Source: Bacteroidaceae bacterium (GTDB lineage: Bacteria > Bacteroidota > Bacteroidia > Bacteroidales > Bacteroidaceae). Taken from it: DNA of 64,000 bases. Location of the stretch: NCBI GenBank assembly GCA_017560945.1, contig JAFZDY010000011.1, forward strand, positions 23,000 to 86,999, in the 5' to 3' direction. The translations under genes were made by a program, and so were the position numbers. Under the pieces are notes generated by a model, which worked only from the letters and a program-made list of their open reading frames with translations, was not told where the DNA came from and did no database searches. Shown here piece by piece: positions 46,375 through 63,153 of the stretch (positions are counted from its first letter, which is position 1; each line of letters starts with the position of its first letter).

Positions 46375-47586
46375 ATGAATGAACATTTAACAGTAAAATC
46401 ATTTGGTCCGGTCAAAGACCTTGATATTATGTTTAAGAAAGTAACCTTGTTTATTGGAGACCAAGGCACAGGTAAAAGCTGTGTTGCAAAGCTTTTCTCC
46501 ATGTTTAAATGGTTAGAAAAAGTTTTAAGCCAAAAGAAATACAAACTCTCATACTTTGAGCAATATAACAGGTTCAAGACAAAGTTGTGCGCATATCATA
46601 GTATTGAATCCTTCATTGATGAAAATTCATATATCAAATTTGAAGGTAATCTATATGATTTTTTATATGAGAATGGGGTTTTTAGTGTAATTGACAAGAG
46701 CCAAGACATTAATGGTATCTCAAAAATAATGTATATTCCCGCAGAACGTTCAATTGTGAGTGTGGCTGAGAATAAATCTAAGCTTTTGAAAGAATTGCCG
46801 GCTTCCAGTGAGACATTCTCCGATGAATTCGTAAATGCGAAGAAATTCTTTCAGAGTGGCTATAATCTTCCGTTTGAGGGATTACGTTTTGAGTATGATA
46901 GTTTAAATGACACCGGTTGGATTCATGGGGCAGACTATAAAGTTCGACTTATTAATGCTTCTAGTGGTATTCAGTCATCCCTTCCAATGTGTATTGTTTC
47001 GGAGTATTTGAGTGTTAAAATTTCGGACAAGGAAGAAGTTAAACTCTCTAAAGAAGAAAAAGATAAGTTGGAAAAAAGAGTCGCTGAAATCATGCAAAAC
47101 GAAGAACTCTCTAATAGTATTAAAGATATGATGATACGTCAATTGTCATATGCCAACAGATATAATAGACTCATTAACATTGTTGAAGAACCAGAATTGA
47201 ACCTTTTTCCTCGTTCGCAAATGGAGGTTCTTAAATCTTTGATTTCCAATAATGCGAGTTCTGATGAGAATATGCTGGTATTCACAACTCATAGTCCATA
47301 TTCATTGGCAATTATCAATACAATGATCATGGGAGCAAAAGCGTATGCCAACGCGAATGATGAGCAAAAGAGTCAGATAGAAGCCATTTTACCTTTAAAG
47401 TATCAGATTAAAAAGGAAGATATAGCAGCTTATCGTTTAGCTTCTTCAGATGCAGTCTATTGTCAAACTGTTATAAATCCGAAAACAGGTCTTATTTCTA
47501 AAAATGAATTAGATTCCGCATCAGACGATATTATGCGAGTGTTTAACTCTTTATACCAGTATTATGCCAAGGCTCTTACAAAATAA
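46375..47586 (+). CDS. AAA15/OLD-like ABC-type ATPase
   Basis: 403 residues. Walker A is FIGDQGTGKSCVAKLF (GDQGTGKS at about residues 28-35), an ABC-signature-like SSGIQSSLP is near 203, Walker B is NIVEEPELNLFPRSQ (about 265-276), and the switch histidine is in FTTHSPYSLAI (about 304). This is the compact SMC-like ATPase type found in OLD, Septu, PARIS and retron systems. No TOPRIM domain is attached. It overlaps the next gene, a nuclease-like protein, by 23 bases, so the two probably act as sensor and effector in a defence or toxin role. Confidence 0.8.
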   Translation: MNEHLTVKSFGPVKDLDIMFKKVTLFIGDQGTGKSCVAKLFSMFKWLEKVLSQKKYKLSYFEQYNRFKTKLCAYHSIESFIDENSYIKFEGNLYDFLYENGVFSVIDKSQDINGISKIMYIPAERSIVSVAENKSKLLKELPASSETFSDEFVNAKKFFQSGYNLPFEGLRFEYDSLNDTGWIHGADYKVRLINASSGIQSSLPMCIVSEYLSVKISDKEEVKLSKEEKDKLEKRVAEIMQNEELSNSIKDMMIRQLSYANRYNRLINIVEEPELNLFPRSQMEVLKSLISNNASSDENMLVFTTHSPYSLAIINTMIMGAKAYANANDEQKSQIEAILPLKYQIKKEDIAAYRLASSDAVYCQTVINPKTGLISKNELDSASDDIMRVFNSLYQYYAKALTK

Positions 47587-48181
47587 TGATTTACCTACTG
47601 CTATTACCAATCTTAGATTGTGTACCGCATTACGGAATTGTGGTGCTATTGGTGTGGCTGATGCTTTTGACAAAAGTTCCGTAGAACATCTTTATGTATA
47701 TGATGACCAAGATCTTGGTTACACGGATTGGAATGATATCGAGCCAGACTTCGTATCAAAGTGTTTTATGGTAACAAATCCTAGTAATAATACGATTGTT
47801 TTGCTGCCACTTGATGGGAGAATTCTTACTGGAAATAGTATTATTGCCGGTGGTGTATGCGATGGAATGCTTCTAACAGAGAAAGAAATGTGTCTCATTG
47901 AGTTCAAAACAAATGTCACATCATCCAACTATCAAACAATTATACAGAGGGCAAATAAAGCAATAGAGCAACTATGGCACACTTTTGATGGTATTATTAA
48001 GCCTAAATGCAACAATAATGATAGAAATGTAGATCATCTTCTTTCTGTTGATTTTCATATTGTGTTTGATAAAGATTTAGAAATAACAACTGCTAATTCA
48101 GAACTTATGGATTTGCAGATTCAGTTTGTAGAAGATTATAAATATCAACTCTATTTTGATAACGAAAAAAGATTCCAATAG
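47564..48181 (+). CDS. Small PD-(D/E)XK-like protein paired with the ATPase
   Basis: 205 residues, starting inside the ATPase gene (23-base overlap). The middle has GGVCDGMLLTEKEMCLIEFKTNV: D100, then E113-F-K115 on a predicted strand, followed by a helix (YQTIIQRANKAIEQLWHTF). This spacing fits the PD-(D/E)XK nuclease core. An earlier part has many aromatic and hydrophobic strands, and the C-terminus is not conserved with anything I recognise. It is likely the effector nuclease of the ATPase pair; this is inferred from the motif and overlap, and the family name is unknown to me. Confidence 0.68.
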   Translation: MPRLLQNNDLPTAITNLRLCTALRNCGAIGVADAFDKSSVEHLYVYDDQDLGYTDWNDIEPDFVSKCFMVTNPSNNTIVLLPLDGRILTGNSIIAGGVCDGMLLTEKEMCLIEFKTNVTSSNYQTIIQRANKAIEQLWHTFDGIIKPKCNNNDRNVDHLLSVDFHIVFDKDLEITTANSELMDLQIQFVEDYKYQLYFDNEKRFQ

Positions 48182-48327: not shown

Positions 48328-48561
48328 ATGGCAAAGTTAAATAGAATCAAAGTTGCTCTAGCTGAACGTGATTTGAGTAACAAATGGTTGGCAGAAAAGA
48401 TAGGAAAGGATCCTGCAACTGTCTCTAAATGGATAACCAATACCACTCAGCCCAACATCGAAACACTCATGCAAATCGCAAAGGTCCTCGAAACACAAGT
48501 AGATGATCTGTTGCGATTTGAAGAACTGCCTGAAATTCCTGCAGTAGAAGAAATTGCATAG
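48328..48561 (+). CDS. XRE-type helix-turn-helix regulator
   Basis: 77 residues, intact. MAKLNRIKVALAERDLSNKWLAEKIGKDPATVSKWITNTTQPNIETLMQIAKVLE… is a complete HTH_3/Cro-like fold with the recognition helix around PATVSKWIT. Two broken relatives lie at 33966 and 35342. It stands between the ATPase-nuclease pair and the dpt-type operon and may regulate either. Such small XRE proteins often repress nearby restriction or toxin genes. The 170 bases after it up to 48730 contain no gene. Confidence 0.85.
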   Translation: MAKLNRIKVALAERDLSNKWLAEKIGKDPATVSKWITNTTQPNIETLMQIAKVLETQVDDLLRFEELPEIPAVEEIA

Positions 48562-48730: not shown

Positions 48731-50836
48731 ATGAGTAGCATAAGAATAGAAAAGATTGCCTGTAATGCAGTTAGCAAATACATTGCTGATTGTAGGAGTC
48801 TTGTGCCACAAATAGACGAGAATGATAAAACTCCTATTTGGGATGGAGACATTTACATCTATGATTCAGAGCAGATAAAGAATGACAATCTAAAGGGACG
48901 TTATCCACTTCAGGTCAAAGGAAGAGACGTAGAAACATTCACGGAAGAAGAAAAATTTCCAGCTCGCATAAATGATCTAATAAAATTTGCACAAGAAGGT
49001 GGATGTGTGTTTTTTATAGTACAAGAGTTATGGGACGATGATAACGAAGAGACTAAAACGAGAATCTTTTATAAGTTTTTAGACAAAACAGAAATCCAAA
49101 AACTCTTGTCTGTGAGCAACCTCAAAGAAACTAAAACTATTATTTTAAAACCTTTGTGCACTAAGAAGTCGCTTTTCGTTATCGAACTTAACAGGTATTT
49201 ACAAATTAAACAACAAGGTTTTTGCGTGCCCGTCCTTCCTTCATTGAACGATCTTGTTGCATATACTCGTTTGATTGAATCAGAATTGTCCTCTTGTAAA
49301 AATACGGAAAACAAAAAATCTCTTTTGGCGTTGATAGAATCAATCCGTGCTATTAATATTAATGATGAGTTATGGATTGATAAAGTTATTGCGTACTCTA
49401 GAGGTGTGATTGCAGATTCACAGGGTATAATTGACGAATATACTATTGCAGGTTGGTTCTTTGTCTTTGCACAGTTCTGCGATGAGATTGCTTACTATAG
49501 ATACTCCGAGAAATATTATTATAAGTCATTGAATGTTTGTCAACAATATGTAACTGACGATTGGCAAACCTATTTGCCTAATGTCGCAAACATTTTATCA
49601 AATTTGGGAAACCTTCATGTTAAAACTAGAGAGTACGATCTTGCCGAGAGTGAATTAATGGAAGCTCTTTCACAATTTCAGAAATTGACCGAAGTATCGC
49701 CAAACAAGTACATTTATTTTGTTGCATTGGCATACAATAATCTGGGAGAATATTATCGTGAATCAAAATCATATAAAGAGGCGGAAACAGCAATAATAAA
49801 AGCTGTTCAGATGAGACGAGAATTAAACCTACAGCCTACAGTAGTCTCAAAATTTGATCTTGCTTGCTCGCTGAATAATCTCGGGTTGGTTTATTTGTAC
49901 ACCAACAGATACGATGAATGCATCAAAGAACTTAAAGAAGCTCTTGAACTTTTTCAAAGTTTACCAGAAGTCGACCTCTATTGGGAAAAGATATCAACGG
50001 TTCTACTTAACCTCGGTAATGCGTATTCATGTTTGAAGGATTATGACAATTCTAAAAAAACATATTTAGCGGCACTACAGATAGACGAACAACTTACAGA
50101 TAAATATCCATCTTTGTACGAGGAACGTATAGCTCAAGACTTGAACAACTTGAGTAAAATCAGTCGTATACATGGCGACAAAGCGGAAGTGCTTAGCCAA
50201 CTTGACGAAGCCATTTCTATATACAGAAAATTGACACAAAACTGTTTTGAAGCTTATGCTCTTAATTTAGTTGAAGTGCTTAGAAATTTTGCTATAATAA
50301 ATTCTGAGCTTAACAATAATGATAAAGCTGTCTCTGCATTTGAAGAGGCAATAGAAATATGCAGGATGCTTTCTGTTCTTTCACCAATATACTTTGGAGA
50401 TGATCTAATAAGAATACTCAAAAGTGCAATCTCTTTTTTCGTAGACCTCAATGATTACAACCGAGTTGAATCTTTAATCAAAGAAGGTAGCTATATGATA
50501 AAACTTATGTACACCTTAAAGCAAGAAGATAAAAGTATGGAATACAAAATAGATAAATTAAAACTTGTTGATTACGTTAAGAAAAATAAAATTGTATATC
50601 AAAAAGCTGAAGAGCTAATAGAAACGATTGATGAACAACAATTTCAAACTCTTGTTGAGGTAATTTCATTGATGGAAAATTGTGCCATTATTGGAATCGT
50701 AAATCGAGAAGATATGTTCGATTCATGTTTTAAAGAATTGGCAGAATGGTCAACCGCAGATGATGTACTAATACTGGTAGACAACGAAATTTTACTTTGT
50801 GTACCTAAGAATGAATATATAAAGTTATTAGCATAA
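48731..50836 (+). CDS. DUF4365-like N-terminal domain plus tetratricopeptide repeats
   Basis: The start is ATG 48731; the open frame from TTG 48725 adds only two residues. The result is 701 residues. Residues about 1-145 look like DUF4365, a PD-(D/E)XK-like domain: IWDGDIYIY (D38, D40) and YPLQVKGRD (Q61-V-K63). About 240-560 holds six or seven TPR units (SNLGNLHVKTREYDLAESELMEAL, YNNLGEYYRESKSYKEAETAI, NNLGLVYLYTNRYDECIKEL and others). A -7-like TATATTTG (48720-48727) lies so close to the ATG that the mRNA might be nearly leaderless. It is the first gene of the five-gene operon, with GTG of the next gene 3 bases after its stop. Confidence 0.75.
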   Translation: MSSIRIEKIACNAVSKYIADCRSLVPQIDENDKTPIWDGDIYIYDSEQIKNDNLKGRYPLQVKGRDVETFTEEEKFPARINDLIKFAQEGGCVFFIVQELWDDDNEETKTRIFYKFLDKTEIQKLLSVSNLKETKTIILKPLCTKKSLFVIELNRYLQIKQQGFCVPVLPSLNDLVAYTRLIESELSSCKNTENKKSLLALIESIRAININDELWIDKVIAYSRGVIADSQGIIDEYTIAGWFFVFAQFCDEIAYYRYSEKYYYKSLNVCQQYVTDDWQTYLPNVANILSNLGNLHVKTREYDLAESELMEALSQFQKLTEVSPNKYIYFVALAYNNLGEYYRESKSYKEAETAIIKAVQMRRELNLQPTVVSKFDLACSLNNLGLVYLYTNRYDECIKELKEALELFQSLPEVDLYWEKISTVLLNLGNAYSCLKDYDNSKKTYLAALQIDEQLTDKYPSLYEERIAQDLNNLSKISRIHGDKAEVLSQLDEAISIYRKLTQNCFEAYALNLVEVLRNFAIINSELNNNDKAVSAFEEAIEICRMLSVLSPIYFGDDLIRILKSAISFFVDLNDYNRVESLIKEGSYMIKLMYTLKQEDKSMEYKIDKLKLVDYVKKNKIVYQKAEELIETIDEQQFQTLVEVISLMENCAIIGIVNREDMFDSCFKELAEWSTADDVLILVDNEILLCVPKNEYIKLLA

Positions 50837-50838
50837 TC

Positions 50839-52194
50839 GTGGCAACAAAGATAAACAAGATACAGAAAAGAAGTAAACCAGTCGGTTTGGTGGATGCAGA
50901 CCTCTTGTGCAAGGGAACTCGGCATCCTAATCTTGTATTGTTAAAACTTGCTGGATATTTCCGCGATAAAGGCATATCTTATGAGTTGATCATTGATGAA
51001 GATGTTGACCTTGATCGTTACCAGCGCGTTTATCTCTCTCGCGTTTTTGTATTCACGACTTTGCCTAAATTTGTCAGAGAATATCAGGCAAAGCATCCGA
51101 GGAGCTGGGACACAAGGCTCAAGATGGGTGGTACTGGCTTTTATGCTACAGAGGAAGACCATGAGAAGTTCAATGAGGAACGCCGCAAGGACATGATGCA
51201 GCTTAGCATCGACCCTTTTTTGCCCGATTTTTCTATGGTTCACCAGATGCCCGACTACAATATCTATAACCAATATATAGAACGTGAGGTAGAAAAGAAA
51301 GTTAATGAGGAGAGTAAGAAGTTCCAAAAGAAAAATGGTATTGCTCCTACTGCAGAGGAGGTAGAGAAGATGATTACTAAACACCGCAAGAAGTACAAGG
51401 ATTATCTAGACTATAGCATAGGTTTTCTCACTCGCGGTTGCATACGTCAATGTCCTTTCTGCATAAACAAAGGCGAGCGTGCTATCCTGCCTTATTCTGA
51501 ACTTGCTGATTTTGTAGATGATAACCGCGCTTTCATCTACTTGTGGGATGATAATTTCCTTTGTTACAAGAATTGGAAGGATTTGCTCCAGAAACTAATT
51601 GACCGTGGCAAGCCATTCCAATTTCGACAAGGATTGGACGAACGCATCCTGAATGATGAGCGCGCGGAAATGCTGAGTAAAGCACCTTATCATGGTGACT
51701 TTATCTTTGCGTTTGACCAATGGAAAGACAAAGATTTAATAGAACGCAAACTGAAAATATGGAGGAGGCATTGTCCGACACGAACAACTAAATTCTATCT
51801 CTTTTGTGGTTACGAGTTGACAATGGATGATGACGAGAGAATCTTTATAGACGTTTATTATCTTTTTCGCAGAATTCAGATTCTGATGAGATTTGGCTGT
51901 TTAGGTTACGTCATGCGTCATGCTGATTACGAGAACCATCGTTTGGGCAATATCTACACACAGGTAGCTCGATGGTGCAACCAACCTCAGTTCTATAAAA
52001 AAATGTCATTCGAGGAATTTGTGTTACGAAACCAATCCTATCAAGAAGAGCATTCAGCTTCAACAAACATCTGCAAGTCGCTTGCAACATATAATGAGTT
52101 TAAGAAAACATTCAAGGACAAATGGGATGAAATCGAGCCCTTGTTCAAGATGAAATATGAGTTAACTATAAATCCTGCTAATTGGAAAGAGTAA
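50839..52194 (+). CDS. Radical SAM protein with N-terminal cobalamin-binding-like region
   Basis: 451 residues, starting at GTG 50839, 2 bases after the previous stop; no nearby ATG exists. The N-terminus (KPVGLVDADLLCKGTRHPNLVLLKLAGYFRDKGISYEL) resembles the Rossmann-like region of B12-type radical SAM proteins, though no DxHxxG cobalamin motif is seen. A charged helical insert (about 140-185) follows. The iron-sulfur motif is GCIRQCPFC (C201, C205, C208, CX3CX2C), in context FLTRGCIRQCPFCINKGE. The rest (YLWDDNFLCYKNW … FQFRQGLDERILNDE) fits the radical SAM barrel. It precedes dptF by 5 bases, so it is part of the operon. Substrate unknown; DNA or nucleotide modification is an inference. 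Confidence 0.83.
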   Translation: MATKINKIQKRSKPVGLVDADLLCKGTRHPNLVLLKLAGYFRDKGISYELIIDEDVDLDRYQRVYLSRVFVFTTLPKFVREYQAKHPRSWDTRLKMGGTGFYATEEDHEKFNEERRKDMMQLSIDPFLPDFSMVHQMPDYNIYNQYIEREVEKKVNEESKKFQKKNGIAPTAEEVEKMITKHRKKYKDYLDYSIGFLTRGCIRQCPFCINKGERAILPYSELADFVDDNRAFIYLWDDNFLCYKNWKDLLQKLIDRGKPFQFRQGLDERILNDERAEMLSKAPYHGDFIFAFDQWKDKDLIERKLKIWRRHCPTRTTKFYLFCGYELTMDDDERIFIDVYYLFRRIQILMRFGCLGYVMRHADYENHRLGNIYTQVARWCNQPQFYKKMSFEEFVLRNQSYQEEHSASTNICKSLATYNEFKKTFKDKWDEIEPLFKMKYELTINPANWKE

Positions 52195-52199
52195 AAAAT

Positions 52200-53867
52200 A
52201 TGGACGATACTGTACTCGTAAAAGTATTCAGAAGGCTAAGCCAGGGTTCTAAACAATCCGTTCAAAGCGGTAAGGAACTTGATGATTTTGACAAATTCCT
52301 ACACGTTGACCGTCCTATTGATAGAGCGGTAAGAGACGCTATGGATAGTATTCGCATAGAAGGAGGTGGAATATTGTTCCTTGTGGGTAGTGCCGGTGAT
52401 GGTAAATCACACATGATCTCGACATTGAAGAAGGAGTATCCCGATTTCGAGTTTCGTAATGATGCGTCTGAAAGTCCGTGGCCAAATGTAGAATCCATAG
52501 ATGCTTTAAAAATCTTTCTGAATGATTTCAAGGATGTTACTCTGCAGACAACAAGCGCAAAGATGCTCGTTGCCATCAATATGGGTAAATTGAGTGCTTT
52601 CATTGATGACATAGACGTTCAAGCCAACTTTTGTGAGATTGTAAGTTGCGGCAAAACCCTCTTTGATGAGGACAACCTCTGTCACGAAGAGACAAAGAGA
52701 GTAAGAATTGTATCCTTTATAAATCATCAGATCTTTGAGTTATTTCCCGAGCAGAAGAACATAACTTATCCTATTGACTCTCTCTTCATAAAGAAGGTCC
52801 TCAACAAAATCACAAGTAAAGATTACGATAATATATTCCGTGCAGCCTTTAACAAATCAACGCCTATTGGTTCGGAATTCGATCCTTGCTACATCAATTA
52901 CCAATTACTCTGTATACCTGCTGTACAGGATGCCATCGTTAAGCTCATCATTGAAGCCATTATTCGTTTCAAACTAATGCTGACTCCTCGTGAGTTGTTC
53001 GATTTCATCTATCGTATTGTTGTGCCTAATAATTACACAACTTTCAATCCTAGCAAAGACTTTTTCCGCTCATTGTTGCCAACAATTCTATTTGGTGGCG
53101 GTGAAAATAAGATCTTGAAAAATCTTGCTTTGCTAGATCCTTTGAAACATGGCAGTATTGTCCATAACGATTATCTATCAGAACTATTTACGTCTATCGA
53201 AATACCCGATGAACCTTGTTTTAATGGTCTCCAAGGAAAACTTCATCCACGCTTCTTCGCCATTCTCGATGAATACTACAAGAATAGTCGTAGTAATGTT
53301 GAAGACATTTCTAGACTTCTCTTTCGTCTGAAACATTTGCTTGAGTATCATTCTGAATCGGACGAATATCGTTCATTCCTCGAAATACTCTGTGGCTACT
53401 ACAATAACGATGTACATCGACTATTCCCCCTCTACGAGACTATCCAGCGAAGCATTCCACACTTCTATGGTTCGTACACAGATAAACCAAACGTTGTGCC
53501 TCTTGACATTCAGGGACGTGAATATAAAATGTTTGTTAGTTGCGACAATTTGAAACCCGATCCTCAAAATTCAATACCTTTCAACAGGAATAACAGAAAC
53601 AAGTTTGTTGTTGAAATTGATACTCAATGGAAAGTCAATGAATCAGTACTATTAAAGATAGAATACCAACTCTATGAATACCTTTGCAAGATTCAGCGAG
53701 GAAAATTGGCACAAGCGGATGACCGTAATCACAATCTTTCCTTCAGCGAGTTTATAAGCAAGTTGGTACGCCAAACAGATTTTAAGAATAAGGTCATCAT
53801 CCTTACTTCCGACAATAAGCAGTTAACATTATCACGAATCTTCGGTAAAAAAGTCACATTGAAATGA
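52200..53867 (+). CDS. dptF: DptF-like P-loop ATPase of phosphorothioation-dependent restriction
   Basis: The start at ATG 52200 (MDDTVLVKVFRRLSQGSKQSVQ) is preferred over the upstream TTG 52182, which overlaps the radical SAM gene. The result is 555 residues, near the DptF length. The N-terminus FDKFLHVDRPIDRAVRDAM leads into Walker A LVGSAGDGKSH (G63-S70) and then RNDASESPWPNVESIDALKIFL, a pattern I associate with DptF. DptF is an ATPase of the DptFGH complex, which attacks DNA lacking the phosphorothioate mark. Its stop overlaps the dptG start (ATGA). Confidence 0.8.
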   Translation: MDDTVLVKVFRRLSQGSKQSVQSGKELDDFDKFLHVDRPIDRAVRDAMDSIRIEGGGILFLVGSAGDGKSHMISTLKKEYPDFEFRNDASESPWPNVESIDALKIFLNDFKDVTLQTTSAKMLVAINMGKLSAFIDDIDVQANFCEIVSCGKTLFDEDNLCHEETKRVRIVSFINHQIFELFPEQKNITYPIDSLFIKKVLNKITSKDYDNIFRAAFNKSTPIGSEFDPCYINYQLLCIPAVQDAIVKLIIEAIIRFKLMLTPRELFDFIYRIVVPNNYTTFNPSKDFFRSLLPTILFGGGENKILKNLALLDPLKHGSIVHNDYLSELFTSIEIPDEPCFNGLQGKLHPRFFAILDEYYKNSRSNVEDISRLLFRLKHLLEYHSESDEYRSFLEILCGYYNNDVHRLFPLYETIQRSIPHFYGSYTDKPNVVPLDIQGREYKMFVSCDNLKPDPQNSIPFNRNNRNKFVVEIDTQWKVNESVLLKIEYQLYEYLCKIQRGKLAQADDRNHNLSFSEFISKLVRQTDFKNKVIILTSDNKQLTLSRIFGKKVTLK

Positions 53868-55339
53868 TAGGATTCTCAGAAACAAATTTTCTCAGGGAGT
53901 ACATAAAGCCCAAGAAAGACAAGAAGACTGGTGTGGTCAAGGACAAACTGGAGGACAACTTCCAGACGGGCAAGCAGAAACTGTTACCCTTTACGCTTAA
54001 CCCTATCAGCGGTTGTGTTTATGATGGCACTTGTGGTTTGAATGGTGTAGCTGGTGAGTTCTATCGCATTATGATACAATCGTCCGTAGAACCAATCTAT
54101 ACTGTTCAGGATACAGAGGACACTCTTCGCAAGGAGTTGAGTGATAAATTTATGATGTCTGTTGATGACGTTGAACGCTTTATTGAGGTTTTCAATGATG
54201 TGATGTTTGAAAATGAAACCCTCAATGTCATAGATCTCTCATTCTTTTCGTTTGTACCTATGAAATATTTCAGTAGGTCATACGAAAAGGACAAGAGAGT
54301 CAATAAATACAAGAGCGGACAACCAAAGATTGCCGACTACTATGCATCTATTGCAGAGAATATGAACGTAGATTTCGCGACAAAGGAAAAGGATCTATTC
54401 TGCGAAGTGGTGAATGAATGCTTGCAGAAAGATTCGATTGTCGGTCGTAGCGAGCGAGACAGATACTTCATTCTGCCATTCGTCAAACAGCAGTTTTCGG
54501 AAGACATTAAATGGCTGTTAAAACAGAACAATAACGTCATCGTGAAGTATCTACCTTTAATGCTTTATTTCTATGCTTCATATTCTATCATGCAGACGTT
54601 GATGTTCATGAATAAGGCTAACTGGCAATACTCAACTGATAAACCACGACCGATTACATTCATGCTTTCGAGCGAACGTGCATCAGAGGGCCAAGCTGCC
54701 GTGAAAAGAGGTTGGGCTGCAGCCGATCATTTTCCTGAAACTTTCCTCAATAAAATGTCAGCATACGCTCAGGCGCTTGACATCCTGAACTCTATGTTTG
54801 TAGATGAAGAACAACTGATGACCTTCCAAGAGATTTTTGAACGTTTTGGCGAAATGGAGTTTGATGATGGAGCAAAAAACATCTGCGAGAAGGTACTGAA
54901 TACTTATCAGGATTACAAGTACGAATTGCTTGACGATCGTAACACAGAACCACATCCTATTGCAGAAAAAAAAGAAATCAATATAAACAGTTTTGAGGAG
55001 TTTGTGGATCTGCTGCTAAATCGCTGCTTAACGTATCAGTCGGTTGATTACCCGCGAATGAAAGTGGCACTTTATTCACTCGTTAGCATCAAATTGTTTG
55101 AAAAGAGGCGTGATTATAGCGTTCTTGTATTGGATGATGAGATGCTTCTTTTACTCGTAGCGATGATAGCTAAAGACGAAAGGTTACGCATGGAGGATCT
55201 CTTCAAGCGATTCCGCGAGTATGGCATTGAGTTCTCCTTCCAGACAAAGAATGCTATTGGTGATTATTTACAGAAGTTAAACTTATTAGAGCGCAAGAGC
55301 GATTCAGGAGAGGCACAGTATGTACGAGTTGTTTTATAA
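53864..55339 (+). CDS. dptG: DptG-like component of phosphorothioation-dependent restriction
   Basis: 491 residues, starting in the ATGA overlap with dptF. Sequence signs of DptG: a start with KQKLLPFTLNPISGCVYDGTCGLNGVAGEFYRIM, a hydrophobic helix pair (IVKYLPLMLYFYASYSIMQTLMFMNKAN), and FMLSSERASEGQAAVKRGWAAADH. No catalytic motif is known for DptG; it is a structural or linking part of the DptFGH restriction complex. It overlaps dptH by 20 bases. Identification rests on position and these patterns. Confidence 0.78.
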   Translation: MIGFSETNFLREYIKPKKDKKTGVVKDKLEDNFQTGKQKLLPFTLNPISGCVYDGTCGLNGVAGEFYRIMIQSSVEPIYTVQDTEDTLRKELSDKFMMSVDDVERFIEVFNDVMFENETLNVIDLSFFSFVPMKYFSRSYEKDKRVNKYKSGQPKIADYYASIAENMNVDFATKEKDLFCEVVNECLQKDSIVGRSERDRYFILPFVKQQFSEDIKWLLKQNNNVIVKYLPLMLYFYASYSIMQTLMFMNKANWQYSTDKPRPITFMLSSERASEGQAAVKRGWAAADHFPETFLNKMSAYAQALDILNSMFVDEEQLMTFQEIFERFGEMEFDDGAKNICEKVLNTYQDYKYELLDDRNTEPHPIAEKKEININSFEEFVDLLLNRCLTYQSVDYPRMKVALYSLVSIKLFEKRRDYSVLVLDDEMLLLLVAMIAKDERLRMEDLFKRFREYGIEFSFQTKNAIGDYLQKLNLLERKSDSGEAQYVRVVL

Positions 55340-58300
55340 TTTCCTTATTGAAGAACTGCTGGTTCGTTATTTTAAGAAGATCAACGTTGAATCAGGAGAT
55401 AAGTTTTATATTGTAATAGAAGATGCAGCCTTACGTCAGGACTTCTATAAAGTTCTTCGTAACTCAGCCTTCACATGTAGCCAGAAGATTTATTTCCCTG
55501 GTTATGAGAAATATGGTATAGGTTCATCTGAATATGATACTGTAGCATTCACTTGTACAAGCAACGGTATACCCATCATCGTAAGCGGATGTGATGATGC
55601 TGGTGACGGATTCCAGACAATGATTCGCAACAATATCGGTGTCATGGGTAATCCAATCAGTGAAATGGCTGCTTTGTTTATTCTTCCAGGTACTAATGCC
55701 ATTGAGACCTTGCTGAGTGCTGGACAAAATCTGCAGGAAGAACCATATCCTTTGTGCCTCGACTCCATTACCAAGGCAATAGGTAATAAGATAGCCAACA
55801 AGATCAATACAATAGAAAAGGAATATTTGCGTAATCACGTCAACCGACTCCGCTTCCAGGATGATTATACATCGTTGTTTGATTTTGCGCCTGTGCTCTC
55901 AATCCTGCAGAAGCCAAGTCTTAAACATAGCTTTGCCCAACTTGATGCCTTTGAAGATTCTGAGATTTATGACAATATGTTTGCATCTACTGATATCAAC
56001 ATCAAGGAGCGAGTAAAGGACAATACTTCAGCCTTTTCTATCATCAGCGATATGATGAATGAAGCCTACGATCAGGATCAGTACAAACGTCTCACTACTT
56101 ACCTCGATCCGAAACTTGCTTATAAGATCTCGAATAATAAGGTTGACTGGAGAACCCTTGACTACAGAGAGATTCGCAAGAGCCATGACATTATTGTGGG
56201 TAATCCAACAATAACTCGTCCACATTTCAAGGTGGATGGTGATGCTGAATTGGTATCAAACGTAATAGGTCCTAAGAGCGAGAAAATTTCAAAGAATTTT
56301 GTCATTGTGTGTGATCCAGCTTCATCATCCACAACTCTCAAAGCATGCTTCAATAAGGACTTGAAAGATTATTCGCATGGTTCAATAACGAAGGTGTCCG
56401 GATGTAACCTTGTGTTTACTCTTGGACAGAAGTCACAGAAAGATAAAATTGGTGATGATAAGAATTACCATGAGGTTTCTGTCCTTCATCTAAAGACCAA
56501 AAACGTATTTCAAAGCATTACTCATTACTTCACCATTGATGCAAATGGTAACATCGTAGTAAATGTTCCCGACTCAGAAGATCGATTCACAATTGGTTTA
56601 GGCGCGAATCTTATAAACTATGATGGAATGACACCCGTTGAACTTGATGATAATTCGTATTTCCACATTGACATTGATCATAATGCCACAGAGGAACCGA
56701 TCATTCCATTTAAGTTTGGCGATGCTATCCTAAACATCCGTTTCAAGTATAAAGGTGAGAAAACTCCAACCCTTAATCCTAGTTCAATAACAGACGCCAT
56801 TTGGGGAAGTGAAGAAGGTGGTTATACACATGATGGAGATGAGGGAAACATTACTGGTACAATCAATGGCCCTATAGGTCCTGTTTACATCCATGAACGT
56901 TTCCGAAAATTGGTAAGTTTGGAGAAGCGTATGATCGATTGGAACACTCCATACTTCTACATTGAGAAGAATGAGTTTTGCAATGAAGATGAGATAAAAA
57001 CACAAAATCTATCGATTGCATACTCCATAGATACGGCTCTTGCACAAATTTTCAACTATTTCAAGGCAAGGAATACCGTACCATCTTTTATCCGTCCTGA
57101 TGCAGAACTAGTTCAACTTTATCAACGTTACATTGAGGCTGTCCACGATGAGATGTTGGACATTCCGAGCAATGGAGTCAGCTTCAGTAACACAAATGCC
57201 ATTAATATTTCAAAATTGGGTGTTGTGGAGTTTGAGGATGGCACAATCATGCTTTCTCCGTTCCATCCTCTTATGGTGGCTTATGCACTTCAGATGTCTG
57301 AGTCGATTGACTCCAACGAATATAACAAGAAAGTAATAGGCGAACTTTCACCTCTTTATCTCATGCCATACATTTACTATGGAAATAGGGTACTAAAGGC
57401 TATAAGCAGTACTGAGACAGAAGATATCCTTACTTGGGTAAAATACGACGAAGCTAACAATACACAGCAGCTATACGGAACGAAATCGACGTCAAAATTG
57501 GTCACCGAAAAGATACACAACTTTATAGATAACTTTAAATATTATTTCCCTGATGCGGATTGTCCGATACGCATAAGTGCCATCGGTTTGTCACAATCTG
57601 TAGACCTTGTCCGAGGTATTGTCAGCTTCATAGACACAAGTCGAAAGAAAGGTAGCGTACAACGTATTGAGATTCACGAGTACGTTGAGGACATATTGTT
57701 AGATACTTTTTTTGAGAAGTTGAACCGTCAATCATCTCGTGACAATATTTCAGAGTTTTTTAACATTCACAATTTCAACATTGCAGACAAGGATCTGAAT
57801 GAGATCATCCGTTTGCTGTTCAGTCGTGTCAGCTACTACAAACATACATTTAAGGATAGCCGAAAAATGGAAGGCTACAGTCATGTGACTTTCTTTAAGA
57901 TTAACTCTGGCACAAATTACACACCGTTGCCTGCCGTTCAACTTCGTACAGAAACATCGCTTGATGGTCTTGTTTCCATACCTTCTACCAACCTCATCGG
58001 TAGTAACTATCTAATGGGATTCGGTACATGCGGATTGAAGGATAACAATAGTCCAATCTACCTGATGGCACACGACATGAACAGTCTTTATGCAGGATTG
58101 GTGAATGATGGTTTGTCATCTTATAAAGAAGGTCAGTGTACCGCTAAGAGATACAGTTTCAAGGATGCAGATTTCTTGCAATCGGTTTACGATAACTCCA
58201 CTTGGGTAACGTTTGTTTATCCAGAGGTAGATATTGATTTCTTCTATAAACAAAAGAATATCTATGTTGTTCACTATGTTGAGCATCATTCCATTTCTGC

Positions 58301-60548
58301 CCGATTGGAGAGCATTACTGTTACTCAGCATGTTGTACAGTACAACAAGATGCTATTCAATTCTCTCCAAACATTTAAGTCGATAATCGGCACAAGTGAG
58401 GATTTTAGCCGCAAGATGATCAGTTATTTTAACTGTTTGAATGGTAAATGGCTACTTGATATTGCAGGAAAAACAGAGTTGATTATGCGCGAAAAGATGA
58501 GCCTTGTAGCCACATGCTTTGTAATGAAGCATTTTCTCAATCGTACCAATAACATCATCTGGGCACCGATTGCACTTGATGAAATAGTGCGTGCTACAGG
58601 CTCAATAGGAATGACTCAGGACGGATTGTTTTCGAAGAAAGATCTTGGCCTTGATGGACCTCTCTCAGATGACATTTTAATGATGGGTATTCGCCGCAAT
58701 AATAATGATGAGTTGGACGTGTTTTTCTATCCTGTTGAGGTAAAGGTTCTTGCTGATGACTCTGTCAGCAAGGGTGAGATACAGGTGGTAAACCTCTACA
58801 ACAAGGCATTGAAGGAAGTACTTTTTAAAGGTGACTCCTTTACAAGGAAGGTTTATCGTGCCTTGTTTGCGTCGCATTTCTTGTCGAATACAGAGAAGAT
58901 GCGTGCCAACGAACTAATGTCTGATGCTGACTATGAGAGCGTGAACGAATCGCGTTACGAAATGCTGAACGTTAAGTTCAACATCGTAGAAGAATTGCCA
59001 GTGGAGATTGGTAAGGCTGCCCTTGTGGTTTACTCTGATGCTACACCTAAGTCGTTGAGAACAGAATGGATTGATGACGTGCCCGTATGCCACATTCGCA
59101 TGATGGAATCTGATTGCTACCGTATTGTGGCTAATCCCGATACACAGCTTCTTCAGTTTGTGGAAGAGTCTGCAATTGCTGTTGCACCTCAGCCGAGGGC
59201 AAGTACTGCATCAACTATGCCTATAACACCAATTACGTCAACTTCAGGTGCGACGACATCGTGTCAGCCAGTTATGTTTTTTGAGCCGGATGGTCAAATT
59301 ACTAAAGATGAGAATGAAGATCCTTCTACGCATGTTGTTTCTTTATATCCAGAACACAAGGAAGAATCTTTGCTGATGGTAGCAGACGGGGTTCATCAGG
59401 GCATAAAGATAAGACTTGGAAAAGACCGAAAAGGTTCGCCAATCATTTTCGAAGCAAATAACACCACAAAAATTTCCCATCCGAACATGGGTGTCGTCGG
59501 TGGTATGGGATTTGGAAAAACACAGTTTTCTCTTTCACTTATAGCACAGTTTGCCAAAGAGAGCGAGCACAATGTTGATGGTCGTCCCATCGGCATGTTG
59601 ATCTTCGATTACAAAGGTGATGATTATTCGACGGAAGCTTTTCTAAAGCAGGTAAATGGCAAGTGCTACAGCTTTAATTTTCCGTTCAATCCATTGAAAC
59701 TGATTGTTACGGACAAAACAAAGTTTATGAATCTGCCAGCTGTAACAGCAGACAGAATAAGTGATTCGTTTGCCAAGGCTTATGGATTGGGACAGGTACA
59801 GCAGAGCACCATTAAGCAGATTATTCTTGAAACCTATCAAGATTTTGGCATTACAAATAATCCATCCACATGGAGCAAGCCACAGCCAACGATGAGCAAT
59901 GTGTTAGATAAATATTTTGAACAATACGATGCCAAGGATAAGACATATGCTCTGTTTGACAAACTGAGAGATTACATGATCTTTACACCAGATAACAGCG
60001 AGTGCGTTTCGCTCTTCGAGTGGTTGGATGGTGTAAAAGTCATTGACCTTACTCCATATCCAGGCGATACGAAAAAGGTGATTGTTTCGTTAATTTTGGA
60101 TCTTTTTTATGAGGAAATGCGACAGTTGGGCGCTAGCAAGTTAGATGATCCGTATCGAGAATTACGTGCGATGATTCTTGTGGACGAGGCACACCAGTTT
60201 CTCAATAAGGATTTCAATTCGTTCCGAAACATCATCAGCGAAGGTCGAATGTTTGGTGTTGGTATGGTGCTCTCGACTCAGAACCTTTCAGACTTCAAAT
60301 CAGCAAAGCAGGAGTATTCGCAATATATCCTCAGTTGGGTTATACTCCACCTAAATAACATTACAAAAGCGGAGGTGTCAAATATTTTTGGTTCAAATGA
60401 CCCGAATTGTCAGGCATACGTTGACATTGTGAGTAAGGCTGACAAATTCCATGGTATCTGCAAGATTGGTAATGAGGTCAAGGCTATCCACACTTTGCCG
60501 TATTATGAACTCATAAAAGAAGACAAACGTTTCATAACGAAATTATAA
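55320..60548 (+). CDS. dptH: DptH-like HerA/FtsK-type ATPase of phosphorothioation-dependent restriction
   Basis: 1742 residues, the usual large size for DptH. The first 1300 or so residues are a long region of mixed fold with no clear motif, ending in a low-complexity linker (PRASTASTMPITPITSTSGATTS, about 1294-1316). The C-terminal 350 residues are a HerA/FtsK-type motor: Walker A GVVGGMGFGKTQFS (about 1390-1403), FDYKGDDYS, Walker B MILVDEAHQFLNKDF (about 1617-1631), and STQNLSDF. DptH is thought to translocate on DNA and help recruit or form the nuclease. An efficient terminator lies 100 bases downstream inside the convergent mob gene. Confidence 0.84.
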   Translation: MYELFYNFLIEELLVRYFKKINVESGDKFYIVIEDAALRQDFYKVLRNSAFTCSQKIYFPGYEKYGIGSSEYDTVAFTCTSNGIPIIVSGCDDAGDGFQTMIRNNIGVMGNPISEMAALFILPGTNAIETLLSAGQNLQEEPYPLCLDSITKAIGNKIANKINTIEKEYLRNHVNRLRFQDDYTSLFDFAPVLSILQKPSLKHSFAQLDAFEDSEIYDNMFASTDINIKERVKDNTSAFSIISDMMNEAYDQDQYKRLTTYLDPKLAYKISNNKVDWRTLDYREIRKSHDIIVGNPTITRPHFKVDGDAELVSNVIGPKSEKISKNFVIVCDPASSSTTLKACFNKDLKDYSHGSITKVSGCNLVFTLGQKSQKDKIGDDKNYHEVSVLHLKTKNVFQSITHYFTIDANGNIVVNVPDSEDRFTIGLGANLINYDGMTPVELDDNSYFHIDIDHNATEEPIIPFKFGDAILNIRFKYKGEKTPTLNPSSITDAIWGSEEGGYTHDGDEGNITGTINGPIGPVYIHERFRKLVSLEKRMIDWNTPYFYIEKNEFCNEDEIKTQNLSIAYSIDTALAQIFNYFKARNTVPSFIRPDAELVQLYQRYIEAVHDEMLDIPSNGVSFSNTNAINISKLGVVEFEDGTIMLSPFHPLMVAYALQMSESIDSNEYNKKVIGELSPLYLMPYIYYGNRVLKAISSTETEDILTWVKYDEANNTQQLYGTKSTSKLVTEKIHNFIDNFKYYFPDADCPIRISAIGLSQSVDLVRGIVSFIDTSRKKGSVQRIEIHEYVEDILLDTFFEKLNRQSSRDNISEFFNIHNFNIADKDLNEIIRLLFSRVSYYKHTFKDSRKMEGYSHVTFFKINSGTNYTPLPAVQLRTETSLDGLVSIPSTNLIGSNYLMGFGTCGLKDNNSPIYLMAHDMNSLYAGLVNDGLSSYKEGQCTAKRYSFKDADFLQSVYDNSTWVTFVYPEVDIDFFYKQKNIYVVHYVEHHSISARLESITVTQHVVQYNKMLFNSLQTFKSIIGTSEDFSRKMISYFNCLNGKWLLDIAGKTELIMREKMSLVATCFVMKHFLNRTNNIIWAPIALDEIVRATGSIGMTQDGLFSKKDLGLDGPLSDDILMMGIRRNNNDELDVFFYPVEVKVLADDSVSKGEIQVVNLYNKALKEVLFKGDSFTRKVYRALFASHFLSNTEKMRANELMSDADYESVNESRYEMLNVKFNIVEELPVEIGKAALVVYSDATPKSLRTEWIDDVPVCHIRMMESDCYRIVANPDTQLLQFVEESAIAVAPQPRASTASTMPITPITSTSGATTSCQPVMFFEPDGQITKDENEDPSTHVVSLYPEHKEESLLMVADGVHQGIKIRLGKDRKGSPIIFEANNTTKISHPNMGVVGGMGFGKTQFSLSLIAQFAKESEHNVDGRPIGMLIFDYKGDDYSTEAFLKQVNGKCYSFNFPFNPLKLIVTDKTKFMNLPAVTADRISDSFAKAYGLGQVQQSTIKQIILETYQDFGITNNPSTWSKPQPTMSNVLDKYFEQYDAKDKTYALFDKLRDYMIFTPDNSECVSLFEWLDGVKVIDLTPYPGDTKKVIVSLILDLFYEEMRQLGASKLDDPYRELRAMILVDEAHQFLNKDFNSFRNIISEGRMFGVGMVLSTQNLSDFKSAKQEYSQYILSWVILHLNNITKAEVSNIFGSNDPNCQAYVDIVSKADKFHGICKIGNEVKAIHTLPYYELIKEDKRFITKL

Positions 60549-60599: not shown

Positions 60600-61325
60600 T
60601 TATTTATTGTCATCGGTAGATGAATATTTAAAATCATAAGTTTTATTGGGGTTAGTCACGTTAGGACTAACCCCAGTTTTTTTCCATTGCAATTCCATCA
60701 GCTGCATTCGTTCATGTAGTGCCATATTATCCCGAATAATAAATCCTGTTAATCCTATGGAAATTGTCCATAGGCATATCAGGATAATTAGGATTAGATT
60801 TTTAACATGTTTGCTATGCCAAATTCGTTTAGCCCAGTAGCAGGGTATGTCAGCCAGGATATATGAGATTAAGTCTTTGGGAGTATGAGGCATCATAGGA
60901 AATTCGTAGGGTTGCTGTAGGCTGTTCTGGATATAGTCATTAATAGCTGTCAATTGGCTTTCAATTTTCTCAATGGCAGTCTTACGCTTTTCTTGTTCCT
61001 TGTTCGCTTGATAGAAGTTATGATAGACTTTATCCCAATATTCAGCAAGTCTCTTTAATTTATTGATAATATCATTATAGCTTTCGGATACAGAATTTTC
61101 ATATTCCTCCGTCTCCGCTTTTCGTTTCTCTTCTTCCTCCTTAAACTTCTGTTGGCGTTTTTCCAACAATATTCTGACCTCATTGGCTGCAGCCTGGGCT
61201 ATTTTGTTTTCTAATTCATCCCAATTAGGGACGTTTTGGGGTGATTGCGAAGAATTATTCTTTTTAAATTCTTCGATGCTCTGCCTTATGCTACTGAGAT
61301 TGGCAGCTATTATATCTTCTTTCAT
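60600..61325 (-). CDS. Coiled-coil membrane protein of the mobilization region
   Basis: 241 residues. Residues about 45-130 are a charged coiled coil (KRQQKFKEEEEKRKAETEEYE … KEQEKRKTAIEKIESQL), and about 176-197 is a transmembrane helix (LILIILICLWTISIGLTGFII). The start overlaps the relaxase stop by one base (TAATG), so the two are translationally linked. Proteins of this form follow MOBP relaxases in Bacteroides mobilizable elements and may link the relaxosome to the coupling apparatus. A 67-bp piece of this gene is duplicated near 41.2 kb. Confidence 0.72.
   Translation of the reverse strand: MKEDIIAANLSSIRQSIEEFKKNNSSQSPQNVPNWDELENKIAQAAANEVRILLEKRQQKFKEEEEKRKAETEEYENSVSESYNDIINKLKRLAEYWDKVYHNFYQANKEQEKRKTAIEKIESQLTAINDYIQNSLQQPYEFPMMPHTPKDLISYILADIPCYWAKRIWHSKHVKNLILIILICLWTISIGLTGFIIRDNMALHERMQLMELQWKKTGVSPNVTNPNKTYDFKYSSTDDNK
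60648..60683 (+). terminator. Terminator for the dpt operon, inside the convergent mob gene
   Basis: Perfect 10-bp stem GGGGTTAGTC (60648-60657) and GACTAACCCC (60665-60674) with a 7-base loop, then AGTTTTTTT. On the plus strand it lies 100 bases after dptH. On the minus strand it is part of the coding sequence (GVSPNVTNPNKT). Confidence 0.8.
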
Positions 61326-62380
61326 TATCTTCGTCTTTTATAGGTTCGATTATTATTGTTGTCTTTTTCTTTGTTATCATCGCGCCATCCACGGTTATCA
61401 CTACCGCCACCTCCACCGCCAGTTTCTACTTGATGGGGTTGAAGCAAGAGCTCAATCATAGCTTCACCAACGGCTGACGAGGATGTATTGCCTGTACTTC
61501 CGCTTTCTGATAAATTGGACTCCGTGGTTATAGCATGCCCATTAGAATGATTGGCTGAAACCTCATCTTTTACAAAAGGAGAAAGAGACTTCTCTTCATA
61601 TGGATTTGAACTTCCCTGAATTCTTCTTTCGCCCAATTTGAAACATAGTTGGCCATAGGTTAATACCTTGGGCTCCAATTTGGATCCAGAGATACTTATT
61701 TGATGGTTCGCAAATGAAATCCCTCTGATTGTATTTGTTTGGCTGCTTGTAAAGAAGCGGATACTGATGCCTGTTTCTTTCAGAAGTCTGCAAAAATCGT
61801 CCCAATTGGATGACCTATCGAGAATGTTGTTGATGTCCATTCTCAGTTTATGTTTCTTGGCTTCATACCCACGTAATCTGTCTTCATGGATTTTCTTGCT
61901 TTTGGATGGAGCCACATACAATCCATATTTCTTGTTGAGTAATTTGCATACCGCCATATTCCGTATTCGTTCACGACTATCAGAAATGACATTACCGTCG
62001 TTATCTATTCGGTTAAAGACAAGATGACAATGGGGATGCTCGGTGTCAAGATGTCTGGCAATGATGTACTGCGTATTGGTGATACTCATCTCTTTCATCC
62101 AATCTTTAGCAATCCTAACCATGAGTTCATCCCCCTTTTCGTCATCGGTGAAAAGATGGACATCGTTAGGAGAGAAGCCTAACGATATATGCTTGACTGG
62201 TTTTGCTATCTTAGAACGCATGGATGCTTGGATGCTGAATGAATCTGCTATGGACTTATTGCTGATAATACATACATCCTTATAATCTATGAGTCGTGCT
62301 TTCTTCTTGTCATTGTTGTAATCATGGGCATAATCCACGATACCAGCAAATGATTCTCTTGTCTTTATCTTTGCTATCAT
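61325..62380 (-). CDS. Relaxase/mobilization nuclease (MOBP type)
   Basis: 351 residues. The relaxase domain is in residues about 1-230. The metal-binding histidines are in ARHLDTEHPHCHLVFNRID (H110, H115, H117, H119), with the family start MIAKIKTRESFAGIVDYAHDY. The C-terminal part is a low-complexity acidic and glycine-rich tail (EVETGGGGGGSDNRGW, DDNKEKDNNNN). It nicks the transfer origin and pilots the strand during mobilization by a helper conjugative element. It follows mobC by 3 bases. It ends in a one-base overlap with the coiled-coil gene. Confidence 0.92.
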   Translation of the reverse strand: MIAKIKTRESFAGIVDYAHDYNNDKKKARLIDYKDVCIISNKSIADSFSIQASMRSKIAKPVKHISLGFSPNDVHLFTDDEKGDELMVRIAKDWMKEMSITNTQYIIARHLDTEHPHCHLVFNRIDNDGNVISDSRERIRNMAVCKLLNKKYGLYVAPSKSKKIHEDRLRGYEAKKHKLRMDINNILDRSSNWDDFCRLLKETGISIRFFTSSQTNTIRGISFANHQISISGSKLEPKVLTYGQLCFKLGERRIQGSSNPYEEKSLSPFVKDEVSANHSNGHAITTESNLSESGSTGNTSSSAVGEAMIELLLQPHQVETGGGGGGSDNRGWRDDNKEKDNNNNRTYKRRR

Positions 62381-62383
62381 ATA

Positions 62384-62737
62384 TTACCTGAATTCGTTGA
62401 TGAGGTTGAGTAATACGTTAATGATTTCCTGACATGAATGGTAGGTTTCTTCAAAACCGAACGCATGCATCTTATGAGCAATCTGATTGACATTGTTGGC
62501 AACTCCGGCTATGTCTCTGATGAGTGCTGCCTGTTCTGAATTGATGCGTTCTTTTACGCTTCCATCCATGGCTGCTTGGTGGCAATATTCACTGATGGAT
62601 AGTCCGCATTTATTGGCTTTATCCTTGATGTAGATATAGTCGGATTCATTGAACATGACTTGGCAACTCTTGGTTCTCTTTTGATATTCGGCTAATTTGG
62701 GACGACCGCCAACTTTTTTCTTTTCTGGCATAGGCAT
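62384..62737 (-). CDS. MobC-like relaxosome accessory protein
   Basis: 117 residues. The N-terminal part (KKKVGGRPKLAEYQKRTKSCQVMFNESDYIYIKDKANKCGLSISEYCHQAAM) looks like a ribbon-helix-helix DNA-binding domain, and the C-terminal part (LIRDIAGVANNVNQIAHKMHAFGFEETYHSCQEIINVLLNLIN) is the conserved MobC helix region. It helps the relaxase bind and open the transfer origin. Two near-adjacent Met codons (residues 1 and 3) are possible starts. An origin of transfer is expected in the 62738-63150 gap, but I cannot point to it. Confidence 0.86.
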   Translation of the reverse strand: MPMPEKKKVGGRPKLAEYQKRTKSCQVMFNESDYIYIKDKANKCGLSISEYCHQAAMDGSVKERINSEQAALIRDIAGVANNVNQIAHKMHAFGFEETYHSCQEIINVLLNLINEFR

Positions 62738-62848
62738 TATTTTTGAAGGAGATTTTAGAAGGCAAGTTTATGGCATTTCAATAGAGGGAGCCAATAGTTT
62801 TAGTCGGACTAAAACACAAACTTGCTCTTCTAAAATCGTTACCATTAC

Positions 62849-63106
62849 TTATTGTACATTACAATGCAGTGTGATACTGCGTTTCGGGATATGTCTGACA
62901 TGGATGAGTCTTGTAATGCCAGTCTCAAATACCAAATGTTTATGAGAGAAACATTCTGAAGCAATTGCTTCTTCGATTAGTTTATAATCAATTACTTTAT
63001 GCACCGCATGATTTTTAATCGTATAAGTGAGTGTATTCTTCACGGTTGGATGTCCCATTTTCTGTAATGTCAAATTTTGCTTTTCTTGTTTTCTATACTT
63101 CTTCAT
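62849..63106 (-). pseudogene. Possible C-terminal remnant of a tyrosine recombinase
   Basis: 85 residues. TLQKMGHPTVKNTLTYT resembles the end of tyrosine recombinase domains (LGHxxxxTTxxY), and the following KLIEEAIASECF resembles a tail seen in some integrases. The arginine, histidine and catalytic tyrosine box is incomplete, and no N-terminal part is present. It may be a remnant of the element's integrase or an unrelated small protein. Upstream 62738-62848 and downstream 63107-63153 hold no other gene; the whole gap between mobC and the DUF3987 gene is otherwise AT-rich. Confidence 0.35.
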
Positions 63107-63153
63107 ATTCGTAAAATTTATGGTCGTTTGACCGGTTCTGTAAATTGATATGT

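Follow-up and report, generated by a model that had tools for sequence, protein, structure and literature searches.

A radical SAM enzyme beside DptFGH and other exchangeable nuclease modules is a candidate writer of a self-mark in Bacteroidota and other phyla

In the DndABCDE-DndFGH systems, DNA that bears the mark is normally spared by DndFGH (DptFGH), whereas a host from which the mark has been lost is harmed; a single mark is described as serving two nucleases, DndFGH and DndI (PMC11662687). DndFGH has been recorded in 1798 taxa and all eight genes in 316, so that decoupled DndFGH is common, and standalone DndFGH lacking a phosphorothioation module has been proposed by Rakesh, Aravind and Krishnan in 2024 (PMC10853773). 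Since DndFGH damages a host without the mark (PMC11662687), some form of self-protection is to be expected in such cases. Here, we describe a locus of a Bacteroidaceae bacterium (assembly GCA_017560945.1, contig JAFZDY010000011.1, positions 23,000–86,999 of the forward strand; this 64,000-nucleotide stretch, to which all unlabelled coordinates refer, is termed the window) in which dptF, dptG and dptH are preceded by a gene for a radical S-adenosylmethionine (SAM) enzyme. On balance, we favour reading the locus as a defence operon akin to restriction-modification, with the radical SAM enzyme in the position of the modification component. The enzyme would write a self-mark, probably on DNA, and interchangeable nuclease modules would respect this mark. 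Gene content, the lack of DndC and DndD above cut-off, conservation, the exchange of modules, the fold class and the methyltransferases near the phage genes are observed, while three steps are inferred: the action of the enzyme on DNA, its role as writer and not as sensor of a mark, and the sparing of marked DNA by the nucleases.

The operon extends from 48731 to 60548 on the forward strand, with all frames open, and encodes a tetratricopeptide repeat (TPR) protein (48731–50836), the radical SAM enzyme (50839–52194), DptF (52200–53867), DptG (53864–55339) and DptH (55320–60548). The first two genes are separated by 2 bases and the radical SAM gene, which starts with GTG, is separated by 5 bases from dptF, which starts with ATG; dptF and dptG are joined by an ATGA overlap, while dptG and dptH overlap by 20 bases. 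The five open reading frames (ORFs) and the spacings agree with those given in an initial annotation of this DNA. The identification of the last three genes as dptFGH was likewise borne out by PADLOC and NCBIfam. DptF matched the PADLOC DndF model at 2.9e-85 (compared with 1.2e-4 for SspF) and TIGR03238 with 147.4 bits (cut-off 50), and DptG matched DndG at 6.7e-42 and TIGR03236 with 90.8 bits (cut-off 20). DptH, a protein of 1742 amino acids with a restriction-enzyme-like region and a HerA/FtsK ATPase, matched DndH at 6.6e-292, although its 380 bits against TIGR03237 are under the NCBIfam cut-off of 620.65. The gene order is that of the DndABCDE-DndFGH systems, and the Walker A motifs of DptF (GSAGDGKS) and of the HerA/FtsK domain of DptH (GGMGFGKT, 59499–59522, with HerA models matching around 1570–1661) are intact. 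A motif search additionally located a candidate nuclease ExK motif in DptH (FYPVEVK, 58725–58745), which precedes the HerA/FtsK domain as does the restriction endonuclease domain in DndH (PMC10853773).

The proposed self-mark writer is a protein of 451 amino acids with an N-terminal Rossmann-like domain and a radical SAM barrel. Its assignment as a radical SAM enzyme, which the initial annotation had made by reading the sequence, is upheld by a match to phrog_9298 ('radical SAM domain protein') at 1.1e-40, by a CX3CX2C iron-sulphur motif (C201, C205 and C208; residues 201–208, 51439–51462), all three cysteines of which are kept in 138 of 138 aligned relatives, and by the predicted structure, which contains the radical SAM barrel fold and matches radical SAM structures across most of its length (predicted local distance difference test score, pLDDT, of 95.2). 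Against the Pfam Radical_SAM family the protein scored 14.3 bits, under the cut-off of 29.5; no Pfam family was matched above its cut-off, and a sequence-profile search found no PDB chain at E ≤ 1. The fold similarity spans residues 11–437 and includes the class B-type enzymes MgmA, CysS, TokK, OxsB, TsrM and AprD4, but also the methylthiotransferases MiaB and RimO. These enzymes share the Rossmann-like N-terminus and the barrel over 291–343 aligned residues, but are just 8–16% identical to the window enzyme. The matched MiaB structures were solved with RNA, and the cobalamin-dependent methylases that share the fold use cobalamin, as is partly also apparent from their entry titles. A search of BFVD with the model returned four matches at E ≤ 0.001, three of them nameless and one a radical SAM maturase. 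Besides the motif cysteines, C380 (98% of the 138 sequences) and C354 (93%) are near-constant, while C323 and C412 are kept in 72% and 59%; constant extra cysteines are thus too few for an auxiliary iron-sulphur cluster to be claimed. The modelled fold class is treated here as a lead to the chemistry and not as evidence of it; as a first guess, it may point to C–H functionalisation such as methylation, or to the addition of a sulphur-containing group.

The initial annotation had further stated that no dnd genes accompany dptFGH in the window and had proposed a search of the whole genome. Within the window, tblastn with one reference each for DndA, DndB and DndE, two for DndC and four for DNA methyltransferases gave no match, and profile searches for DndC and DndD gave none in the genome of the window (G000), which is 81.84% complete in 57 contigs. 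The order of radical SAM gene, dptF, dptG and dptH recurs in 13 of 80 genome loci fetched besides the window, ten of which belong by record title to Bacteroidales or genera thereof, one to Akkermansia and two to the more distant Clostridium. Neither DndC nor DndD was found above cut-off in any of these 13 genomes, while a control plasmid (NZ_CP048887) scored 611.7 and 527.3 bits, respectively; furthermore, the 13 loci were not matched by the DndA, DndB, DndC and DndE references or by the four DNA methyltransferase references. On these results, from an incomplete assembly and 13 other genomes, the location of dnd genes elsewhere in the genome was rejected. The locus thus differs from the DndABCDE-DndFGH systems in that a radical SAM gene stands in the place of the phosphorothioation genes.

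A comparison set of five DptF loci without a radical SAM match (best E 1.9) included one with annotated dndB–E and an adjoining class V aminotransferase as DndA candidate (L007), one with DndC and DndE matches (L191), and one with a desulphurase match in which PbeA-like and DndD-like ORFs were read by eye (L192). Of the other two, discussed below, L008 is a Levilactobacillus plasmid that carries dptF, dptG and a DptH-like gene between insertion sequence transposases (L008:9149–18203), with neither a dnd-reference nor a radical SAM match in this stretch. Genomes with DptF above cut-off numbered 1 among 393 from the order, 3 among 395 from the phylum and 2 among 391 from the class to which a Clostridium genome belongs. 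Among the five distinct DptF loci of this survey, the window and G404 (the genome of L148) have the radical SAM gene, while G775, G485 and G939 have none in the fetched stretches. The radical SAM family is itself rare in the order (2 of 393 genomes at E ≤ 1e-20), and no match was obtained when genomes and viruses were scanned with the window enzyme as the sole query.

To which genes the radical SAM enzyme is joined was determined from the best 80 of 103 confirmed loci, with 23 weaker ones outside the set; two were excluded, L109 because its radical SAM ORF is identical to that of G259 and L162 for want of a clean ORF, so that 78 loci and the window (79 in total) were typed. For typing, each module was represented by between one and three reference proteins in tblastn searches (E ≤ 1e-8), the modules having first been recognised in the same loci. 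As the loci were fetched by the radical SAM enzyme, the counts show its companions and not how often each module has the enzyme. It adjoins one of four restriction-type modules in 74 of the 79 loci, and none in the remaining five. DptFGH (module A) accounts for 14 loci, a NERD-nuclease/superfamily 1 helicase and/or a protein of approximately 790 amino acids of no assigned family (module B) for 26, a ParB-like/SNF2-helicase set (module C) for 12, and a Pbe-type HKD-helicase (module D), in all but one case with a CxC/DndD-like ATPase, for 22. The Pbe module was identified on L134 by PADLOC (PbeA 7.8e-203, PbeC 1.4e-85), while the match to TIGR04095 (323.8 bits) is below the cut-off of 600. PbeABCD with its CxC-ATPase, which is not present in the window, is a nuclease module that many genomes pair with phosphorothioation or with cytosine methylases (PMC10853773); in contrast, it stands in these loci beside the radical SAM enzyme, which in several cases is fused to a domain of approximately 200 residues, and the DndA, DndB, DndC and DndE references were unmatched.

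On a quick tree of the radical SAM enzyme (90 rows, 77 of them labelled A–D), parsimony requires 22 or more changes of module label, where 3 would be the fewest possible, and the branches with good support by themselves imply no fewer than 8 changes for DptFGH, 10 for NERD, 6 for ParB/SNF2 and 7 for Pbe, while the labels are still clustered relative to shuffles. Additionally, in six of six pairs of loci with differing modules and radical SAM enzymes that are 71–91% identical, detectable DNA similarity forms a single block confined to the radical SAM gene and up to approximately 250 bases before it, as exemplified by L105 (DptFGH) and L110 (NERD), whose enzymes are 90.7% identical. As the label changes and the similarity is confined to the radical SAM gene, the nuclease is the exchangeable part. 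The enzyme as a fixed partner of dptFGH was therefore rejected; indeed, the nearest relatives of the window enzyme, in L095 and L096 (71–75% identity, by two counts), carry the NERD module. The proposal of the initial annotation that the radical SAM protein is a candidate for providing a different mark stands in part: no better candidate than the enzyme is apparent for supplying a substitute mark, but it is not a specific partner of dptFGH. The initial annotation had regarded a lack of conservation with dptFGH as one of two findings that would speak against it, and in letter this has been observed, but a common mark becomes more plausible by it and not less.

The DptF tree (19 rows) places the DptF proteins linked to the radical SAM enzyme in two positions, with long branches and with p-AU (approximately unbiased test) of 0.123 for a single clade; it does not establish independent gains of the partnership and is compatible with a single or a repeated origin. 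With respect to module B, a protein of 794 amino acids (X794, L004:4643–7024) follows the NERD helicase and matched nothing in NCBIfam or PADLOC at E ≤ 0.01, its Pfam match being below cut-off. Relatives of X794 directly follow the radical SAM gene in L097, L098 and L123. Among 392 genomes of the order, X794 gave one match (G259), which lies beside a radical SAM gene; this is too few to assess obligate linkage.

Phage proteins of phrog_9298 belong by profile to the same family as the window enzyme, but differ in that they mostly have no restriction module and that many adjoin DNA methyltransferases. Among 57 viral loci typed, one had a Pbe module, one a full ParB/SNF2 set, ten an SNF2 helicase only and 45 none; since 10 of the 11 viral loci labelled C thus have no marker of the set other than an SNF2 helicase, this label was not taken as a module. 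For the analysis of neighbours, 80 viral loci were reduced to 57 with a distinct clean radical SAM ORF, 42 at less than 80% identity, 39 with enough neighbours and finally 37 non-redundant loci, L011 and L019 being excluded as they carry restriction modules. The 140 ORFs within two ORFs of the radical SAM gene included 16 of the N6_N4_Mtase family, 11 of the C5 DNA_methylase family, six of ParB_N and four with the S-adenosylmethionine synthetase N-terminal domain (Pfam; best 25 of 40 families). Conversely, among the 132 ORFs at least five ORFs away, no methyltransferase family was found in the 25 commonest of 74 families, which include every family with at least two members. By phmmer, methyltransferase-like ORFs amounted to 26 of 140 near ORFs (20 of 37 loci) and 1 of 132 far ORFs (1 of 34 loci), a comparison that is biased as some of the queries were taken from the near set. 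In phage NatCom_21982, the radical SAM gene is flanked on one side by an N6/N4 methyltransferase gene and on the other by a C5 methyltransferase gene. A phage protein of 260 amino acids that resembles the S-adenosylmethionine synthetase N-terminal domain is encoded beside methyltransferase and radical SAM genes at L005:5994–6773.

The first gene of the operon encodes a protein of 701 amino acids with TPR repeats (TPR_12, 1.9e-29). The initial annotation had correctly recognised these repeats, while for the DUF4365 that it placed in the same protein Pfam gave no confirmation, even with the threshold relaxed to E ≤ 1, and the N-terminal 215 residues or so have no Pfam match above cut-off. The conserved co-occurrence that the initial annotation proposed to look for is seen for the radical SAM gene with dptF, dptG and dptH, but not for the five genes as a unit: tblastn of the TPR protein against the 80 genome loci gave matches confined to its C-terminal 90 or so residues (50561–50833), the remainder of the gene being particular to this locus, and a conserved five-gene unit was rejected. 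This C-terminal domain (model pLDDT 84.7; no PDB match at E ≤ 0.001 in a fold search) is homologous to a protein of approximately 100 amino acids that is encoded directly upstream of the radical SAM gene elsewhere, in loci of all four module types; its window counterpart is a fusion to the C-terminus of the TPR protein. In 16 loci, upstream ORFs matched the domain by phmmer at 8.9e-14 to 1.3e-6, and it was recognised by profile in 13 of 67 testable loci and also compared in an alignment. The domain of approximately 200 residues mentioned above, termed 'KYGENH', is related across L099, L134, L148, L151, L156 and others, most of which have the motif KYGEN, and is fused to the radical SAM enzyme or encoded nearby in examples that span modules A (from Clostridium), B, C and D. 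Scans of the small upstream protein and of two examples of the 'KYGENH' domain gave a single NCBIfam match in total, to PrdR at 17.6 bits and below cut-off, with none for the two 'KYGENH' examples, and Pfam matches that were all below cut-off.

The operon context presented in the initial annotation had overlooked a gene for a helix-turn-helix (HTH) protein of 77 amino acids upstream of the TPR gene (48328–48561, forward strand), labelled XRE-type from reading its sequence rather than from a profile search. A controller-type HTH gene upstream is an optional feature of restriction-modification loci, and this gene is a candidate for the controller protein of the operon. HTH-related forward-strand frames within 1.3 kb upstream of the radical SAM gene were found in 16 of the 67 testable genome loci (phmmer E ≤ 1e-3), i.e. 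in 6 of 11 DptFGH, 6 of 19 NERD, 0 of 11 ParB/SNF2 and 4 of 21 Pbe loci, and in 0 of 5 without a module. Approximately 97 bases past the dptH stop codon lies a terminator-like hairpin of 13 pairs with a T run (60645–60677, forward strand), a weak call, since the region has 12 such sites and shuffled sequence 8.8 ± 3.1, and Rfam at gathering scores gave no match within the window. Directly upstream of the locus (46375–48181), two overlapping genes correspond to components A (4.8e-110) and B (2e-7) of PDC-M29, a candidate defence pair, as a consequence of which the operon probably lies inside a defence island. Following the operon on the minus strand (60600–63942) are relaxase and DUF3987 genes and a MobC-like gene, the last labelled by reading. 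Relatives of these relaxase-region genes with 52–56% identity occur near the Pbe-type radical SAM locus L134, and a weaker relaxase/MobC pair occurs near L129, so that similar mobile elements carry different radical SAM modules.

The radical SAM enzyme stands beside both DndFGH and Pbe, modules that are tied to DNA marks in print (PMC10853773), and the simplest model is thus that it writes a self-mark. Since its family is joined to three further nuclease/helicase modules besides DptFGH, this mark may be a shared password. According to this model, the enzyme, with the small companion domain and under the XRE-type regulator, would place the mark on host DNA, and DptFGH would scan and translocate on DNA and nick DNA without it. 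The mark would be a common password read by exchangeable executioner nuclease/helicase modules, and phages would use the same mark as camouflage, with which the occurrence of phage radical SAM genes beside DNA methyltransferases fits. In its broadest form, the proposal is of a family of modular restriction systems in Bacteroidota, Bacillota and other phyla, partly mobile, with a new DNA mark that is written by the radical SAM enzyme, read as self by at least four nuclease modules and worn by phages; we hold this wider proposal to be evenly poised. In the open-licence literature, which lacks subscription journals and most preprints, no description was found of a radical SAM enzyme as partner of DndFGH, PbeABCD or NERD modules. 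The standalone DndFGH of PMC10853773 resembles the present locus in lacking a phosphorothioation module, but differs in that neither a radical SAM partner nor module exchange around one appears in the parts of the main text considered; the term 'radical SAM' occurs twice in that main text, both times concerning a DndC claim.

Several observations weigh against the proposal of a self-mark. No modified DNA has been seen, and the window enzyme has no recognised DNA-binding or target-recognition domain, while the closest solved folds act, by their entry titles, on proteins, small molecules and tRNA and not on DNA. According to a published proposal, DndFGH functions by itself and has no modification module of its own (PMC10853773), and L008 and L190, which have DptF and no radical SAM match, were also unmatched by the dnd references in the fetched stretches. 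The genome of L151 has a full-length DndD-like ATPase (147.1 bits, below the cut-off of 245.85), that of L108 a DndC-profile match of 19.3 bits, also below cut-off, and the genome of the window is a partial assembly. The methyltransferase comparison rested on just four references, and a C5 methyltransferase is present in two typed loci, approximately 0.6 kb before the radical SAM gene in L158, a Pbe-type locus, and approximately 6.5 kb after it in L120. Finally, a single marker within 7 kb was sufficient for a module label, and some labels, e.g. those of L127, L148 and L168, depend on one marker each.

Other roles for the enzyme were weighed against the same evidence. It may make a small molecule, such as a modified nucleotide, after infection, which would activate the nucleases or poison the phage in the manner of viperin, with the P-loop of DptF as receptor. 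Viperins are antiviral radical SAM enzymes with nucleotide substrates, and a shared activator would also account for the exchange of downstream modules. DndF is moreover predicted to sense modified nucleotides (PMC10853773), and module C has ParB-like domains, some ParB-fold proteins being able to bind nucleotides (PMC12704722). Nonetheless, DptFGH and Pbe are otherwise paired with DNA-marking genes in many genomes (PMC10853773) and the phage relatives often adjoin DNA methyltransferases, and we judge this role unlikely. A similarly low probability is assigned to a scheme in which DptFGH defends alone and the radical SAM enzyme is an accessory that repairs DNA which the system has cut or altered, or removes or alters phage DNA modifications for the nuclease. 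Spore photoproduct lyase is a radical SAM enzyme with DNA as its substrate. Decoupled DndFGH is common in print (PMC10853773), and L008 and L190 are the two loci in which DptF has neither partner in the fetched stretches. An enzyme that is constant beside a variable nuclease in 74 of 79 loci (fetched by that enzyme) would, however, be odd as an accessory, as would the exchange of modules around it, and phages carry it beside DNA methyltransferases.

The similarity to MiaB and RimO, which are among the closest folds, could conversely indicate that the enzyme modifies RNA or protein (e.g. tRNA, as MiaB does) and that the restriction modules monitor this modification or are switched by it; given that the phage neighbours are often DNA methyltransferases and that the modules hold nuclease- and helicase-like proteins, this appears very improbable. 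Lastly, the incompleteness of the assembly would allow for an ordinary Dnd system, with dndBCDE in the missing 18% or so or on a plasmid and the radical SAM gene unrelated to it. This explanation is the most improbable of those considered, as all 13 other genomes with the radical SAM-dptFGH order are without DndC or DndD above cut-off, among them Prevotella sp. tc2-28 (L106) and Paraprevotella clara YIT 11840 (L129), whose record titles carry no metagenome-assembled genome label.

The association of the radical SAM enzyme with these modules possibly reflects a new DNA modification. The preferred reading, that the enzyme writes a self-mark, offers an answer to the puzzle in print of why DndFGH often lacks phosphorothioation genes, as for this subset of systems the marker would be the radical SAM enzyme. 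If the enzyme marks DNA, it would represent a new class of DNA-modifying enzymes, with radical chemistry performed on intact DNA as a routine epigenetic mark, the chemistry of which is directly testable in cultured bacteria and phages. Under the same condition, restriction-modification would be found to follow a new logic, with several exchangeable nucleases depending on a single writer.

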